Source: Alphaproteobacteria bacterium SO-S41
GTDB lineage: Bacteria; Pseudomonadota; Alphaproteobacteria; Micropepsales; Micropepsaceae
Reading direction: 5' to 3'
NCBI GenBank assembly: GCA_019670725.1
Contig: AP024629.1
Location: 558,001-622,000 of the forward strand
Length of the DNA stretch: 64,000 nt
Below are positions 55,003 to 61,915 of this stretch, piece by piece. The notes under the pieces were generated by a model, which saw only the letters and a list, made by a program, of their open reading frames with translations, did no database searches and was not told the DNA's origin. Each line of letters begins with the position of its first letter. Within the stretch, counting starts at the first letter, position 1. A program made the position numbers and the translations under genes.

Positions 55003-55392
55003 TCAGAGGGCGAGTTTCAGAATGGCGATGAGCACGGCGACGCCGAGCACGATGCCGACAAACTTGTTGAGCAGGAGCGAGGCGATCTTCAGCCCCTCAG
55101 CCGTCACGTAATCCTCGATCACGACCTGCAGCCCCAGCACGAAATGGTAGATGCCGGTCAGCGCGAACAGCGCCAGCAGCGCGGCGTTCACGGGATGCGC
55201 GATGAACGCGACCGCCGCGGCATAGTCCGCATTGGTGTGGGCGGCGATGGCCCAGATGAACCAGATCGCGAGGGGGACCAGCGCAATCGCGCTGATGCGC
55301 TGGGCGATGAAGTGATCGGTGCCGCGCTTGGCGGCGCCGAGGCCGCGGACCTTGCCGAGCGGCGTGCGCAGCGTGTTCTTGGAGCCGGCCAT
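55003..55392 (-). CDS. sdhD: Succinate dehydrogenase membrane anchor subunit
   Basis: A 129-residue protein with three helices. It has [19 protein letters not shown], with an Arg-Ile-Ser near the quinone site, then [17 protein letters not shown] with the heme His candidate. The start at 55392 ([20 protein letters not shown]) is the usual alphaproteobacterial form. Its start overlaps the sdhC stop (TGATG). Confidence 0.93.
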
Positions 55393-55808
55393 CAGAATGC
55401 CCCCCGCGCCCAGAGGGCATAGGCCCAGATCACCAAAGGCAGGATGACGCTGAGCGCGATCACGATCGTGCCGGTGCGCTCGGCGCGGTGCTTCTCGAAG
55501 CCCATGCCGAAATCCCAGAAGAGATGGCGGATGCCGTTCAGCAAATGGAACGAGAGCGCCCAGGTGAAGCCGAACAGGACCAGCTTGCCGAACCAGCTGC
55601 CCGCAACGGCGGCGAAGGTGGCATAGGCGTCCGGGCCGGCGGCGGCGGCGATCAGCCACCAGGCGATCAGCAGCGCGCCGCCGCCGAGGCCGACGCCGGT
55701 GATGCGGTGAATGATCGAGGTCAGCATCGTCACCGGCCAGCGATAGATCTGGAGGTGCGGCGAACGGGGCCGCTCGGGGCGGCGTGCGGACGCTGTGGCG
55801 TCGGCCAT
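55392..55808 (-). CDS. sdhC: Succinate dehydrogenase cytochrome b556 subunit
   Basis: A 138-residue subunit, first of the operon. It starts with a basic tail RPERPRSPHLQIYRWPVTML, then SIIHRITGVGLGGGALLIAWW (the His-Arg-Ile-Thr-Gly motif at the quinone site) and SFHLLNGIRHLFWDFG (heme His). The order sdhC-sdhD-sdhA is typical of alphaproteobacteria, where sdhB usually follows; here it does not. Confidence 0.95.
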   Translation of the reverse strand: MADATASARRPERPRSPHLQIYRWPVTMLTSIIHRITGVGLGGGALLIAWWLIAAAAGPDAYATFAAVAGSWFGKLVLFGFTWALSFHLLNGIRHLFWDFGMGFEKHRAERTGTIVIALSVILPLVIWAYALWARGAF

Positions 55809-55925
55809 GAAAATCCTGAGGTCAGAGAGTCGTTATAAGAACGGCGCGGAGTATAGGAATGACGCCCCTCAAAGCAACGCGCCGCACGCGTCAATCCGGT
55901 CCTTGCGAGACGTTCTCAAAGCGCC

Positions 55926-57305
55926 TCACGCAGAGCGTTTGAAGTAGACGAGGTTCCCCGCGAAGGCGAGCACCAGGCCGATCATCTGCAACAGCCCGCC
56001 GAAGTCGCGCCAGGTGCCCTGTTCGCCCTGCATCAGGCCGGCTTCGGCGTCGAGCGCCCGGCGTTCCACCGTCATGCGCGTCATCACAGGGGCGGCCTTG
56101 CGCTGGATCTCGCCGTCGAAAGCCTGCCAGTCGGGCGAGCGCGGCTTGAACACCAATTGCTCGAACCGGATGAGATCGTCGCCGTATTTCGTCTCGTCAT
56201 TGTCGCCGGCGAGCCGCAGCAGCCACATCAACGAGAACGATCGGCGGTGGGCGACATAGTCCTCCGGTCCCATCTCGAAAGGCGGCGCGGCCTCGCCCGG
56301 CAAGGGCTCGATCACGACCTGCGCCGCGACATGGGACTGCGCGCTCCGCCGTTGTTGCACGTCCTCCACCCACAGCATGGCGATGCCGTTGTCTTCCCAT
56401 GCGTCAAGCGCGCTCGCCGCGACCTCCAGCGAAATGCCCCGTGTCTCGCTGCCGCGGCGGGCACTGTCGATCGCCTGCTGATAGGCATCGACCACGAAGA
56501 AGAGAATGGCGGTGCCGGCCAGCGAGGCCGCGGTGCCGACCACGACGGCGGTGACATCGCCGGTCCAGAACGCGCGGCTGAAAAGGCCGGGCCGCTGGTC
56601 GCGGGGCGTGTTGCGGTTGGCGAACGCCTTGCGTCCTGCGATCTGGCCGGTCAGGGCGATGATGATCCCGAAGACCTGGAAGAACCCGCCAATGGCGCGG
56701 ACGAGATCGCGCGAGCGCTGGATTTCGGGAATGTCGCGGTTGAGCGCCACGCGCCGCTCGTAGCGCGCCCGGTTGCCGCGCCAGACAGCGCCGGTATTGG
56801 CCGTGTTCGCCCGCGTGATCGAGGCTCTAATCTTCGCGGGCGCGGTATCGTCGCCCGCGGCGTAGGCCTCCAGCAGCGCCTCCTGCCCGGCGCTGAGCTC
56901 GGGCAGTGCTTCAGGCGCCGTGATGGCGAGATGCTTGTGGTGGGACAGCAGGGCGATGCGCAGCGCCTCGGCGTTGAGGCGCCGCCGCGTGACATCGTCG
57001 GCGAAGGCATCGAGATAGGCCTCGAAGGCCCGCTGGACGCCGAAATCGACGGCATGGTCGTAGAGCCGCGCCTGGGCCGACACCAGCAGCTGGTTCAGCC
57101 GCTCCGCCTCGCCGACCTTGGCCCTGAGGTCCGCCTCCAGCGCCGCGGTCAGGTAGAAGACGAAGATCGTGCTCACCAGCGACAGGCCCAGGCCGGCAAC
57201 GCCGAGCACGGTGTCGATCGTCCAGAAGGCGCGCGAAAGGATGTGCGGCATGCCCGTCTTGGGCTGGGCCTCTACGCCTTGCGCTTCCCGCGGCTCGTCG
57301 CTCAC
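55926..57305 (-). CDS. Internally duplicated membrane protein, family member 1
   Basis: A 459-residue protein of a family I do not recognise. It has four predicted helices arranged as TM1-soluble-TM2-TM3-soluble-TM4. Each half starts with (S/T)RxFWxxD before the first helix (SRAFWTID, SRAFWTGD), and ends with a helix headed by a Gly-Phe-Gln or Gly-Leu-Gln motif ([37 protein letters not shown], each within 20 residues or so). Basic residues at both ends and in the TM2-TM3 loop suggest that both soluble parts are periplasmic. Start GTG 57305 is chosen for agreement with the paralogues; a TTG at 57362 is possible. Confidence 0.75.
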   Translation of the reverse strand: MSDEPREAQGVEAQPKTGMPHILSRAFWTIDTVLGVAGLGLSLVSTIFVFYLTAALEADLRAKVGEAERLNQLLVSAQARLYDHAVDFGVQRAFEAYLDAFADDVTRRRLNAEALRIALLSHHKHLAITAPEALPELSAGQEALLEAYAAGDDTAPAKIRASITRANTANTGAVWRGNRARYERRVALNRDIPEIQRSRDLVRAIGGFFQVFGIIIALTGQIAGRKAFANRNTPRDQRPGLFSRAFWTGDVTAVVVGTAASLAGTAILFFVVDAYQQAIDSARRGSETRGISLEVAASALDAWEDNGIAMLWVEDVQQRRSAQSHVAAQVVIEPLPGEAAPPFEMGPEDYVAHRRSFSLMWLLRLAGDNDETKYGDDLIRFEQLVFKPRSPDWQAFDGEIQRKAAPVMTRMTVERRALDAEAGLMQGEQGTWRDFGGLLQMIGLVLAFAGNLVYFKRSA

Positions 57306-57367
57306 GCTTGGGGTCCCCCACCCATTTGCCCGAACATGGCGCGGGGGCGCGGCATCAGGCAAGCGAC

Positions 57368-58720
57368 CTAGCGCCGCGGCCTTTTGTAATAGGTGACGTT
57401 GCCGGCAAAGGTCAGGACGAGGCCGAGGAGAAGCAGCAGGCTGCCCCGGTCCCGCGCCGTGGATTGGGCGCGTTCGCTGACGCCCAGCGCGCCCGACAAG
57501 GCATCACGGTCGGCCTTCAGCTGGTCCATCCGGGCATGGGCGCGGGTCAGGATATCCGCTTCGAACGCGCGATAGGCCGGCGAAGCGGGCTCCTGCACCA
57601 GCGCATAGAAGGTCTCGACCGGCGCCGCATAGTTTGCTTCGACATTGTCGCCGAGCATCCGCACCAGCCAGTAGACGGGATAGGACTTGCGCACTGCGAC
57701 ATAGGGGGCGGGCGCGATCTCGATGGCCGTCACGTCTTCGCGCGCCCCCCACGCGGCGCGGATGCCCGGGGGGACATGCGAGGCGGGCGTCCGGCGCGCC
57801 TCGATATCGGCGACGAAGGGCTCCAGGAGGGCGATGTCGTCATATTCGTTGAATGCGGCGTCCGAGAGCGCGATCAGCGTCTCGCGCCCGTCCAGCTGGC
57901 GGCGGGCCTCGTCGATGTCGCGCTGGTGGGCATCGACGGTGAAGAACAGCACCGCCGTTCCCGTCAGCGTCACCAGCGTGCCGATGGCGATGCCGACGAC
58001 ATCGACGGTCCAGAAGCGCCGCGTGAAGGGATGGCTGGGCAGCGCCTGGATTTCCGGCGGGGCGTGCTGCCAGGTGCGGCCCTTGCGCCCCGCGACCTGC
58101 CCGGAGACGACGAGGATGATGCCGAAAACCTGCAGGAAACCGCCGACGGCGCGCCAGAAGTCGCGGGCCCGCCGCAACTCCGCCAGCTCGATCACGACCT
58201 GAGGCCGCCGCGCGCCCTTGGCGGCATTCCCCGCCGCCGCCGGCCCGTCCATCAGACCGGACGTTAGTGCACGCAGCTTCGCCGGCACGGCATCGTCGCC
58301 CTTGGCATAGGCAGCGATCAGACGCGCGGCCTCGGCTTCGAAACCGGGAATTTCGTCTGGCGCGGTTGCGGCGAGATAAGCGGTGAAGGTCCGTGCCCCG
58401 AAGCCCAGCGCTGCCCCGACCATCGCCCGGCGCGCCTCCGGTTGCGCCACGGCATCGGCATGGGCTTCGAGCCCGCGTTCCATCGCGAAGGTGGTGGCGA
58501 CATCGAACAGCGCGCGGCCGTTATCGGTCAGCGCGGCGTTGAGGTCATGGGCCTCGTCCGCCTTGGCGCGGATCGCGCCCTCGTAGCCGGCGGAGAGGTA
58601 GAAGACGAGCAGGGTGGCGACGACCGAGATGACGAGGCCTAGGACGCCCAGCACGACATCGATCGCCCAGAACTCTCGCGTCCAGGGCTTCCACCAATTG
58701 CTCGCGGGACGCGCGCTCAT
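57368..58720 (-). CDS. Internally duplicated membrane protein, family member 2
   Basis: A 450-residue paralogue. Halves begin TREFWAID (14-21) and TRRFWTVD (233-240). Helices are about 19-42, 191-211, 241-262 and 427-444. First soluble part: about 45-190, helical, with GRALFDVATTFAMERGLEAH. Second: about 265-425, with YVAVRKSYPVYWLVRMLGDN conserved in all three members. The tail is YYKRPRR. The start overlaps the stop of member 3 (ATGA), so they are translationally coupled. No catalytic motif is evident. Confidence 0.8.
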   Translation of the reverse strand: MSARPASNWWKPWTREFWAIDVVLGVLGLVISVVATLLVFYLSAGYEGAIRAKADEAHDLNAALTDNGRALFDVATTFAMERGLEAHADAVAQPEARRAMVGAALGFGARTFTAYLAATAPDEIPGFEAEAARLIAAYAKGDDAVPAKLRALTSGLMDGPAAAGNAAKGARRPQVVIELAELRRARDFWRAVGGFLQVFGIILVVSGQVAGRKGRTWQHAPPEIQALPSHPFTRRFWTVDVVGIAIGTLVTLTGTAVLFFTVDAHQRDIDEARRQLDGRETLIALSDAAFNEYDDIALLEPFVADIEARRTPASHVPPGIRAAWGAREDVTAIEIAPAPYVAVRKSYPVYWLVRMLGDNVEANYAAPVETFYALVQEPASPAYRAFEADILTRAHARMDQLKADRDALSGALGVSERAQSTARDRGSLLLLLGLVLTFAGNVTYYKRPRR

Positions 58721-60144
58721 ACCCGCGGCCTCTTGTAGTAGGCGAGATAGCCGGTGAAGGCGAAGAGGAGGCCGAAGAGCTGCATCAGCCCGCCGGCGTC
58801 GCGCACGAAGGCCTGGTCGATCTCCAGCGCGTTCAACTCGGTCGCCAGTGTCACCCGCTCCTCGCGGATCGCGACCAGTTTTGCACCCGCCGCGGCGCGG
58901 ATGCGCTCGACATAGGCGGCATAGGGCGCGCCATCGAGGTCCTCATAGACGCGGTAATATTCCTCGATCAGCGGCTCGAAGCGGGCGGGGTCGTTATCCT
59001 CCGACACACGCGCCAGCCAGAAGACAGGAAACGACCGGCGCGAGCGGACATAGGCGGCCGGCGGAACCTCGCTCGGTGCGCTGTCCTCGCCCGGCAGCTT
59101 CGGGAAGGTGACGGCCGGCGGCGTATAACTGTCAGCCGGGCGGCGCGTCACGAGATCGCCGACCCAGAGTTCCAACATGCCCATATCGTCATAGGCATGG
59201 TTGGCAGCTTCGGTCAGTTCGACCTGCATGCCGCGCTCTTCCAGCCGGCCGCGGATCTCGTCGATCCCGTGATAGTAGCTGACCACGATGAAATAGAGCG
59301 CGATCGTCCCGCCCAGCGAGATCAACGAGCCGAACGTCACGGCGACGACGTCGAGCGTCCAGAAATGACGGCTGAACGGCCCGGTCGAGAGCCGCCGTTT
59401 CAGATCGGGCGGCGCGAACTGCCGCGCCCGCGCTCGGCGGCCCGCGACCTGGCCGCAGATCGCAAGGATAATGCCGAAGACCTGAAAGAAGGCGCCGGTC
59501 GCCCGCCAGAAATCGCGGGCCTCGCGGGTCGCCGCGATCTCCTGTTTCAGCGCGGCCCGGCGTGCGGCCCGGGCCATGTTGCCATCCGAAACCGGCCCGT
59601 TGATGTAACGCACGATCGAGGCGCGGATGGTCGCGGGGACCGCGTCGTTCCCCGCCGCGAATTCCTTCAGCCAGGCATCGCTTTGCGCGGTGAACGGCGC
59701 GACGGCGTCGGGCGCCAGGATGCTGAGATAGGTCTTGAAGCTGCGGAGCGACAGAACCAGCGCCCCCGCCGTCTCGGCGCGGCGCTGCGTATCGCCGGCA
59801 ACGCTTTCCAGATGCGTCTCGAAGGTGCGCTCTAGCGCCGAGGCCGCGGCCATTTCGAAGAGCGCCCGTCCGCCCGCACGGAACACCGCGTTCAGGTGGC
59901 GCTGTTCGCGCGCCTGCGTCTGGACCTGCCGGTCATAGCCCGCCGAGAGATAGGCGATGAGGATGGTCGAGACGATCGCCAGGCCGACGCCGAGCGCCGC
60001 ATAGACGATATCGACGGTCCAGAATTCCCGCGTCCAGGGCCGCGGCCAGCGCAACGCGCGCGGCTTTTGTTCCTCGTCGTCATCCTCGGGTTCCGGGGCG
60101 AGGGGCGCCGCGTCTTCAAAATCGGGAAAAGCGTCGTCCGTCAT
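58717..60144 (-). CDS. Internally duplicated membrane protein, family member 3
   Basis: A 475-residue paralogue and the first gene of the set. It has an extra acidic N-terminus ([21 protein letters not shown]) before TREFWTVD. The second half starts SRHFWTLD. It keeps [20 protein letters not shown] and the shared [19 protein letters not shown] stretch. The C-terminal helix ends YYKRPRV. Divergent from the DUF853 ATPase gene. Function is unknown; the fold may be a periplasmic sensor or a membrane scaffold, but nothing in sequence decides it. Confidence 0.8.
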
Positions 60145-60262
60145 GCCGCCGCAACATGGCGCGGGGCGTGCGCGCGAGGCAAGCGGCGCAATGCCGCGAT
60201 GGCATCTTGCGGCGCAGCACGGCTTGTCGGCATTCTCCCCACCGTTCCATCAGCGAGGCGCC

Positions 60263-61915
60263 ATGAGCGATCCCACCGCTACTCCCCCGGCCGTTCCCAC
60301 CGGCGTTTTCGTCGGCAAGGGCGACAATCCCGTCGAGCTGCTGCTCTCGCTCGCCAACCGGCACGGGCTGGTGGCCGGGGCGACCGGCACCGGCAAGACC
60401 GTGACGCTGCAGATCCTCGCCGAAGGCCTGTCGGCCGCGGGCGTACCGGTCTTCGCGGCGGACGTGAAGGGCGATCTGTCGGGCATCGCGCTCGCCGGCA
60501 CGGAAAAGCCCTTCCTCACCGAGCGGGCGCAGAAGGTCGGGCTCGACCCCTATGTGCTCGAACCGCATCCGACGATCTATTGGGATGTCTTCGGCAAGAA
60601 GGGCCATCCGATCCGCGCGACGGTCTCGGAGATGGGACCGCTGTTGCTCGCCCGCATGCTCGACCTCAACGACGTGCAGGAAGGCGTCCTCAACATCGCC
60701 TTCCGCGTCGCCGACGAGGAAGGCCTGCTGCTGCTCGACTTCAAGGATCTGCGGGCGATCCTGCAATTCCTCGCCGAACATGCCGACGAGATCAAAGCGA
60801 AATACGGCAATGTCTCGCCGACCACGGTGGGCGCGATCCAGCGCGGCCTGCTGGTGCTGGAGAACCAGGGGGGCGATGCCTTTTTCGGCGAGCCCGCGCT
60901 CGACCTCAAAGACTTCATGACGACGGACGCGCAGGGGCGCGGCGCGATCAACATCCTCGCCGCCGACCAGCTGATGTCGAACCCGCGGGTCTATGCGACG
61001 TTCCTGCTGTGGATGCTCTCCGAACTCTTCGAGGTCCTCCCCGAAGTCGGCGATCCCGAAAAGCCCAAGCTCGTCTTCTTCTTCGACGAGGCGCATCTCC
61101 TCTTCAACGACGCGCCCAAGGCGCTACTCGAAAAAGTGACGCAGGTCGTCCGCCTCATCCGCTCCAAGGGCGTCGGCATCTATTTCATCACCCAGAATCC
61201 GCAGGACGTGCCGGACATCGTCCTCAGCCAGCTCGGCAATCGCATCCAGCATGCGCTGCGCGCCTATACGCCCAAGGACCAGAAGGCCGTGCGGGTCGCG
61301 GCGGAAAGCTTCCGCGCGAACCCCAATTTCAAGACCGAGGACGCGATCACCGAAATGGGGATCGGCGAGGCGCTGGTGTCGATGCTACAGAAGGGCGGCG
61401 TGCCGACCGTGGTGGAGCGCGCCCTGATCCGCCCGCCGTCGGGCCGCATGGGTCCGGTGACCGACGAGGAACGCATGGCGGTCATCGAGTCCAGTCCCTT
61501 CAAGGGCAAGTATGACGAGGTGCTCGACCGCGAATCCGCGTTCGAAATCCTCAACGGCGACAAGCAGGTCGCAGCGCCCGCCCCCGCGTCCAAGGCGCAG
61601 ACGAAAAGCGGCGGCATCGACTGGGGCGCGCGTCCCGTGCCCGTACCGCCGCCGGTCGAAACCACGCGCCGCGCGCCGCGTGACGAAGACCTGCCGCGCG
61701 AGCCCCGCGGCTCCATCCGCGACCGCGCCCCTGCACCGGAAGAGAAGAAGGAATCGGGCGGCTGGCTCTCCGACATTTTCGGCGGCGGCGGCGGCCGGCG
61801 TCAGAGCGTGGGCGAGGCGGCGGTCAAATCCGCGGCACGCACCGCCAGCAACACGATCACCCGCGAGATCACGCGCTCCATTCTCGGCGGCATTCTCGGC
61901 GGCAAGCGCCGGTAG
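60263..61915 (+). CDS. HerA-like ATPase, DUF853 family
   Basis: A 550-residue P-loop ATPase of the DUF853/YjgR type. Walker A is GATGTGKT (39-46), after [18 protein letters not shown] follows, and Walker B is [10 protein letters not shown] near residue 275, followed by [11 protein letters not shown]. The C-terminal 100 residues are Ala/Pro-rich with a basic end. These proteins resemble the DNA translocases HerA and FtsK in the motor core; their role is unknown. The start at 60263 gives the family MSDP-like beginning. Confidence 0.9.

Follow-up and report, generated by a model that had tools for sequence, protein, structure and literature searches.

A family of internally duplicated membrane proteins in an alphaproteobacterium, with a layout like that of the helical tandem module protein GlnX

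GlnX of Corynebacterium glutamicum is the closest described counterpart of three membrane proteins, here called A, B and C, that are encoded side by side in the stretch of Alphaproteobacteria bacterium SO-S41 DNA analysed in this work (64,000 nucleotides, hereafter the window). In its description (PMC9769921), PhoA/LacZ fusions mapped four membrane helices in GlnX, which also has two outer domains of ~156 and ~153 amino acids (aa), a linker of ~11 aa, a C-tail of ~8 aa and an N-tail of ~110 aa; in its AlphaFold2 model two four-helix bundles run parallel, and one helix is continuous over 67 residues. The authors named this layout, in which the two bundles pack like a chemoreceptor homodimer at about 171 degrees, the helical tandem module (HTM), and in 2022 they knew of no other such protein. 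They proposed that GlnX originated by duplication of a membrane-anchored unit, the halves of which are no longer alike in sequence, and that an amino-acid signal passes from a binding protein through GlnX to the kinase PknG, by contacts that the authors themselves call undemonstrated. According to the same paper, sensor domains of the 4HB_MCP type function as dimers, and the helical bimodular (HBM) domain carries its second module as an insertion within the first, only one of the two being membrane-connected. The phrase "helical tandem module" was found in one paper only, in a search that left subscription papers and preprints outside its range.

The three genes lie on the minus strand and follow each other in the order A, B, C toward sdhC:

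58717..60144, minus strand: gene A, 475 aa; two units of membrane helix, outer domain and membrane helix; acidic N-terminal tail
57368..58720, minus strand: gene B, 450 aa; 4-bp overlap with the end of A
55926..57305, minus strand: gene C, 459 aa when read from GTG; with a TTG further out in the same frame as start, 55926-57362, 478 aa

A first-pass annotation of this DNA had reported three coupled or closely spaced genes whose proteins, of 459, 450 and 475 residues, share a four-helix architecture and match no nameable family, and this description holds. The coupling is seen in the overlap of A and B, and the length of 459 aa is that of C read from its GTG, ahead of which a G-rich stretch is visible by eye. 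The number four is right for the membrane helices, since hydropathy gives four hydrophobic helices in each protein, and the paralogues are 38-41% identical (A/B 41.1%, A/C 38.3%, B/C 39.2%). Searches of A, B and C in Pfam, NCBIfam and PADLOC gave nothing above the curated cut-offs, the best Pfam match being at chance level (Neurensin on B, E 0.011). No fourth copy is present in the complete 4.44-Mb genome, where the three matches are all to this array.

The GC (guanine plus cytosine) fractions at codon positions 1-3 (0.69/0.49/0.84 in A, 0.72/0.50/0.85 in B and 0.70/0.48/0.87 in C) favour the minus strand, and thus A, B and C over the antisense open reading frames. In genome G003, of the same genus, the orthologues of A and B are 69% and 67.6% identical, and C has no orthologue there; the ratios of nonsynonymous to synonymous substitution (dN/dS) are 0.231/0.825 = 0.28 for A and 0.256/0.952 = 0.27 for B. 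A and B are coding genes under purifying selection, and by their codon-position GC, joined for A and B by dN/dS, all three look like real genes despite the long antisense frames. The latter, on the plus strand at 56157-57371 (404 aa) and 57308-58267 (319 aa), run opposite B and C and are expected at high GC.

Each of A, B and C consists of two tandem copies of a ~220-residue unit, composed of a membrane helix, a ~150-residue all-helical outer domain and a second membrane helix, a duplication that the first-pass annotation had overlooked. The evidence for the units is half-versus-half comparison and hydropathy, and for A2 also the structural model:

59383..60042, minus strand: unit A1, first half of A
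58720..59382, minus strand: unit A2, second half of A; a small insert in it is predicted to form two short strands
58034..58690, minus strand: unit B1
57371..58033, minus strand: unit B2
56589..57245, minus strand: unit C1
55929..56588, minus strand: unit C2

BLAST comparison of half 1 with half 2 within each protein, with a four-sequence subject set, gave E-values of 2.4e-6 for A, 7.5e-6 for B (40 residues only) and 4.0e-6 for C, and a first-half profile matched a second-half profile at 98.2% (E 3.4e-14). Two genomes of a second genus, G007 and G012, carry one single-unit gene each (227 and 214 aa), and a profile of such single units matches the first halves at 97.9% and the second halves at 97.8%. 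A tree built from 12 units unites the first halves of the five fused proteins (95/97), their second halves (100/99) and the two single units (93/89) as three separate groups, which indicates that the fusion predates the split into A, B and C. Judged from these comparisons, the internal duplication is well supported, and the unit tree shows, as far as it reaches, one origin of the fused halves. The tree is unrooted, and the status of the single units as ancestral rather than secondarily split rests on simplicity and on their location in a second genus. The duplication changes the likely quaternary logic of these proteins, in that a single chain may by itself amount to a fused dimer.

The relatives differ in what they carry. 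G003 has A and B only, at the same position, so that C is dispensable to the A+B pair, and the other three genomes of the genus have no unit gene. In both G007 and G012 the single-unit gene is divergent from the same HerA-like gene; in G012 sdhC comes next, and the contig of G007 stops short of that point. The three-gene array, whose conservation in related genomes the first-pass annotation had made its point to check, is therefore not conserved. In the sampled order, probably Micropepsales, all 96 genomes belong to one family; profile A1 found the unit in 4/96 of them, and profile A3 at E <= 0.01 gave 5/96. The fifth match, in G094 (E 4.3e-5), is partial (85/208 positions), lies in a different multi-helix protein and was judged unrelated by eye. 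In the class sample, profile A1 matched 1/385 genomes, the window's own, and A3 matched 3/385; of the two extra matches, both partial and attributed to chance, one is in a histidine kinase and the other in an antisense frame. The phylum sample gave 10/398 genomes, the window's own and nine with partial matches, eight of which were read and judged chance, with L090 left unread; one match, L084, falls in a chemoreceptor, within its helical outer domain, and has an E-value that chance would give across so many genomes. In the class and phylum samples only 7-8 candidates were scored per genome. As a control of sensitivity, profile A1, built without the G012 unit, recovered that unit at E 3.6e-24. 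Genome contigs gave nothing with query P0001 and one locus with profile A2, most likely the record of G003 again; there were no matches in viral contigs or phages, and among plasmids there was one record at E 0.8. The A/B/C family is real, hitherto unnamed and lineage-restricted, and it is missed by current libraries.

Tandem membrane-anchored outer domains and four membrane helices are found by hydropathy and duplication in 5/5 full-length proteins. The outer segments measure 150-152 and 161-166 aa, the N-tail before the first membrane helix 21-50 aa, the linker 30-35 aa (net charge +3 to +6) and the C-tail 6-7 aa (net +2 to +4). The charges of linker and C-tail fit cytoplasmic N and C termini, and in the topology that we infer both termini would be inside, and the two helical domains would lie on the outer side of the cytoplasmic membrane. 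The second membrane helix carries heptad glycines, GX6GX6G, in 11/12 units and GX6AX6G in the remaining one, which fit close helix packing. Between orthologues the cytoplasmic loop shows higher conservation than the outer domains (with A and B taken together, 37/43 against 394/616 positions agree, p 0.0026; singly, p 0.017 for A and 0.10 for B), and among paralogues it differs (A/B 8/21, A/C 7/18). The first 13 residues of A agree with those of the G003 orthologue at 10 positions. The conserved loop and these N-terminal residues of A point inward.

AlphaFold2 modelled the single unit of G007 with a mean predicted local distance difference test score (pLDDT) of 82.7 and a predicted template-modelling score (pTM) of 0.63. 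Its helices span residues 25-97, 102-132, 136-148 and 153-225, so that two 73-residue helices, which include the membrane segments, enclose two shorter ones. Full-length A was modelled at pLDDT 72.2 and pTM 0.58, with helices at 44-115, 118-143, 145-163 and 169-243 in unit 1, which repeats the pattern of the single unit, and at 259-333, 362-369, 371-382, 386-399 and 406-470 in unit 2. These models, of moderate confidence and with no significant fold match, predict helical bundles with long continuous helices. In the viral library of Foldseek, an entry annotated as 4HB MCP had the highest TM-score to the query and the lowest root-mean-square deviation among the 50 matches listed (TM-scores 0.61/0.56, 4.9 A, with an insignificant E of 0.18), and the sensor domains of NarQ (4 rows) and Vc1313 (2 rows) were among the 50 PDB matches listed, also at insignificant E.

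Set beside GlnX, A, B and C share with it four membrane helices, two ~150-aa outer domains tentatively predicted as four-helix bundles, a very short, presumably cytoplasmic linker and C-tail, an N-terminal tail that would lie in the cytoplasm, very long helices that in the models extend through the membrane, a second domain that carries an insert, and the lack of a known output domain. They differ in that their halves are still alike by sequence, that single-unit relatives survive and that three paralogues stand side by side. In addition, the N-tail before the first membrane helix has 21-50 aa against about 110 in GlnX, the second domain has no CHASE3 match, the position of the insert is between outer helices 1 and 2, against the last helix in GlnX, and no glnH- or pknG-like gene is a neighbour; the likeness is one of architecture. 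With the 4HB_MCP superfamily (4HB_MCP_1 and CHASE3; NarQ, Tar) the modelled unit would share the order of membrane helix, helical outer domain and membrane helix, with two long helices entering the membrane, whereas A, B and C have two units per chain, no attached signalling domain and no detectable sequence relation. The HBM domain also has two helical modules per chain, but in A, B and C every unit comes with a membrane pair of its own.

The reading that we favour, at a probability of about 45%, is that A, B and C form an HTM-like family of independent origin, with two fused units taking the place of a homodimer of four-helix bundles and passing a signal from the envelope to partners by way of cytoplasmic parts that are specific to each paralogue. 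An ancestor with a single unit, resembling the sister genus's proteins of 214-227 aa, would probably have acted as a homodimer in the manner of chemoreceptors or NarQ; one duplication with fusion would have made a single-chain pseudo-dimer, the halves of which then diverged, and later gene duplications would have given A, B and C. Each chain would be a covalently fused pair of units, each with its four-helix domain between two membrane helices, in the HTM layout of GlnX. The outer bundles would bind a ligand or an envelope protein, the membrane-continuous helices would carry the change inward, and the short basic cytoplasmic loop, in A together with the conserved N-terminal motif, would dock a separate cytoplasmic partner. 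Such a partner is proposed because no output domain is attached, and the relay to it is suggested by analogy. We infer pseudo-dimer packing, signalling, docking and any complex among A, B and C. The first-pass annotation had taken tandem triplication to imply that the three proteins work together, perhaps as a hetero-oligomer; the tandem paralogues with a shared topology stand, and joint work does not follow from tandem duplication alone. More tentatively, the locus could represent a second HTM family, from Alphaproteobacteria and unrelated in sequence, whose evolutionary steps are still alive as a single unit, a fused two-unit protein, and two or three paralogues, and whose members would be asymmetric single-chain receptors with their own docking loops and separate cytoplasmic partners. 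Because the halves still align and the sister genus has single units next to the same HerA-like gene, the step from homodimer to fused asymmetric pseudo-dimer becomes testable with natural before-and-after proteins. An orphan membrane family is thereby named, with a known but very rare architecture, surviving evolutionary intermediates and a presumed function.

Several results weigh against the reading of A, B and C as HTM-like signal relays. The N-tail of A is net acidic (-9), which the positive-inside rule disfavours in a cytoplasmic tail. The loop comparison was chosen post hoc, concerns a short segment and is not significant for B alone. The second outer domain of A is weakly modelled (pLDDT 55-69 at about residues 321-390), Foldseek gave 0 matches at E <= 0.001 when either model was compared with the PDB or the unit with the viral library, and the VIA-align matches are generic helical bundles whose best Z values, 10.9 and 9.1, are inside the range that the tool calls uninformative for helical models. 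No solute-binding-protein or kinase gene adjoins A, B and C, unlike the arrangement glnX-glnH-pknG, and a distant pair was not sought. At the level of sequence, Pfam has no match for any of the 12 units (best E 0.015), and the unit profile matches those of 4HB_MCP_1 (13 sequences) and CHASE3 (14 sequences) at 0.3% and 1.0%; in the positive control, these two profiles, made from domains of relatives, match each other at 97.1%. None of the 12 units matches 4HB_MCP_1 (PF12729) or CHASE3 (PF05227) at E <= 1, and only chance-level matches were obtained from PHROGs (12 units, best E 0.01) and from PDB sequences (best E 0.18). By these searches the unit family has no detectable relation to known sensor bundles, and the Pfam scan and the profile comparison rule out the unit as a sequence member of 4HB_MCP_1 or CHASE3.

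The best-surviving alternative, which we regard as unlikely, is that A, B and C are structural or tethering proteins of the envelope, forming helical rods that would reach ~7 nm above the membrane and hold a complex or the wall, as a hetero-oligomer with no signalling. The lack of an attached output domain, the placement of nearly all mass in the membrane or outside it, the generic coiled-coil matches and the long helices of 65-75 residues would all suit such rods. The proteins are, however, missing from most relatives, which have unrelated genes instead, so they are not a core structure, and the short cytoplasmic loop is conserved at least as well as the outer parts. It is improbable that they are transport or channel subunits, whose glycine-rich membrane helices would pack into a pore. 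Internal repeats are common in transporters, and the heptad glycines that each unit has in its second membrane helix would be in keeping with a pore, but a unit has two membrane helices only, Pfam gives no transporter match above cut-off, and the large helical outer domains predicted by the model are unlike known carriers.

The remaining alternatives concern the place of the genes in the genome. The first-pass annotation had correctly named the two neighbours, neither of which is part of the system:

55392..55808, minus strand: sdhC (PF01127)
60263..61915, plus strand: HerA-like ATPase (PF05872), divergent from A
55850..55877, minus strand: promoter-like element of sdhC, TTGCTT-N16-TATACT, not counted with the genes of the slot; a like element in 7/7 genomes examined

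The HerA-like gene is present in 32/96 family genomes only, two of these being weak matches, and its surroundings were examined in 24 (the window, G003, G007, G012 and 20 further stretches). In 7/24 (the window's genome G000, G001, G002, G003, G004, G006 and G012) sdhC is found on the far side of the slot that corresponds to 55809-60262 of the window; no sdh gene was found in 16/20 further stretches, some of which are short upstream. The slot is variable: it holds A, B and C in G000, A and B in G003, and one unit in G012. In G001 it is filled by a major facilitator superfamily (MFS) transporter (PF07690, E 2e-26), in G002 by a DUF1329 protein (PF07044, E 1.5e-139) and in G004 by a similar 451-aa gene, by eye and unscanned, and in G006 it is empty (~290 bp). 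A tree of the HerA-like proteins groups G000, G003 and G001 (100/100 without and 89/100 with an outgroup), which makes at least one loss or replacement likely. With unrelated genes in the slot of relatives, the neighbourhood gives no function. The promoter-like element of sdhC, as TTG..-N16-TA...T, is kept in the seven genomes, from three genera, whatever fills the slot; the pattern was written after seeing these genomes, and a consensus promoter scan does not list the element.

This turnover and the patchy distribution would also be expected if A, B and C were dispensable, lineage-specific genes of no settled function that a variable slot has retained for some time by chance; we give this explanation little credit, given dN/dS of 0.28 for A and 0.27 for B and conserved copies in two genera. 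That they are accessory proteins of the sdh operon or of the HerA-like ATPase is very improbable: the unit adjoins the HerA-like gene in 4/4 carriers and sdhC follows in the 3 whose contig reaches it, but the slot is occupied by MFS or DUF1329-type genes in three relatives and empty in another, sdhC keeps its own promoter-like element, and the unit is missing from 28/32 family genomes in which HerA is matched. Slot turnover and the retained sdhC element make the linkage to sdh look incidental, and with the HerA genomes that have no unit they led us to reject a functional one; linkage of the unit genes to sdh or to HerA is probably incidental.

Two further elements lie upstream of A and C:

60153..60183, minus strand: element upstream of A, candidate promoter, resembling that upstream of C
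57333..57363, minus strand: matching element upstream of C, candidate promoter, resembling that upstream of A

The two 31-base elements are near-identical and are the sole two matches in the window to a pattern built from them. The stretches upstream of A and C are alike at 36/51 bases, with 0/300 shuffles as good, and the likeness between C and G003's A is fair (1/300 shuffles as good). Comparisons of A with G003's A (98/300 shuffles), of A with g7, of A with g12 and of g7 with g12 were not significant. This pattern of similarity suggests that C was copied together with its upstream region, and C may be transcribed on its own. The element upstream of A ends 8 bases before the ATG, which is odd for an ordinary promoter, and the consensus scan lists none at these elements or elsewhere in the region.

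Beyond the HerA-like gene, an RND-type efflux gene (PF00873; 61920-63992, minus strand) enters at the right edge of the window and continues outside it, as its match starts from profile position 348. In C. glutamicum, 2-oxoglutarate dehydrogenase is controlled by GlnX. In G003 (L007, 11837-17090), downstream open reading frames resemble sucC, sucD and 2-oxoglutarate dehydrogenase E1, by eye and unscanned, which is probably a coincidence.

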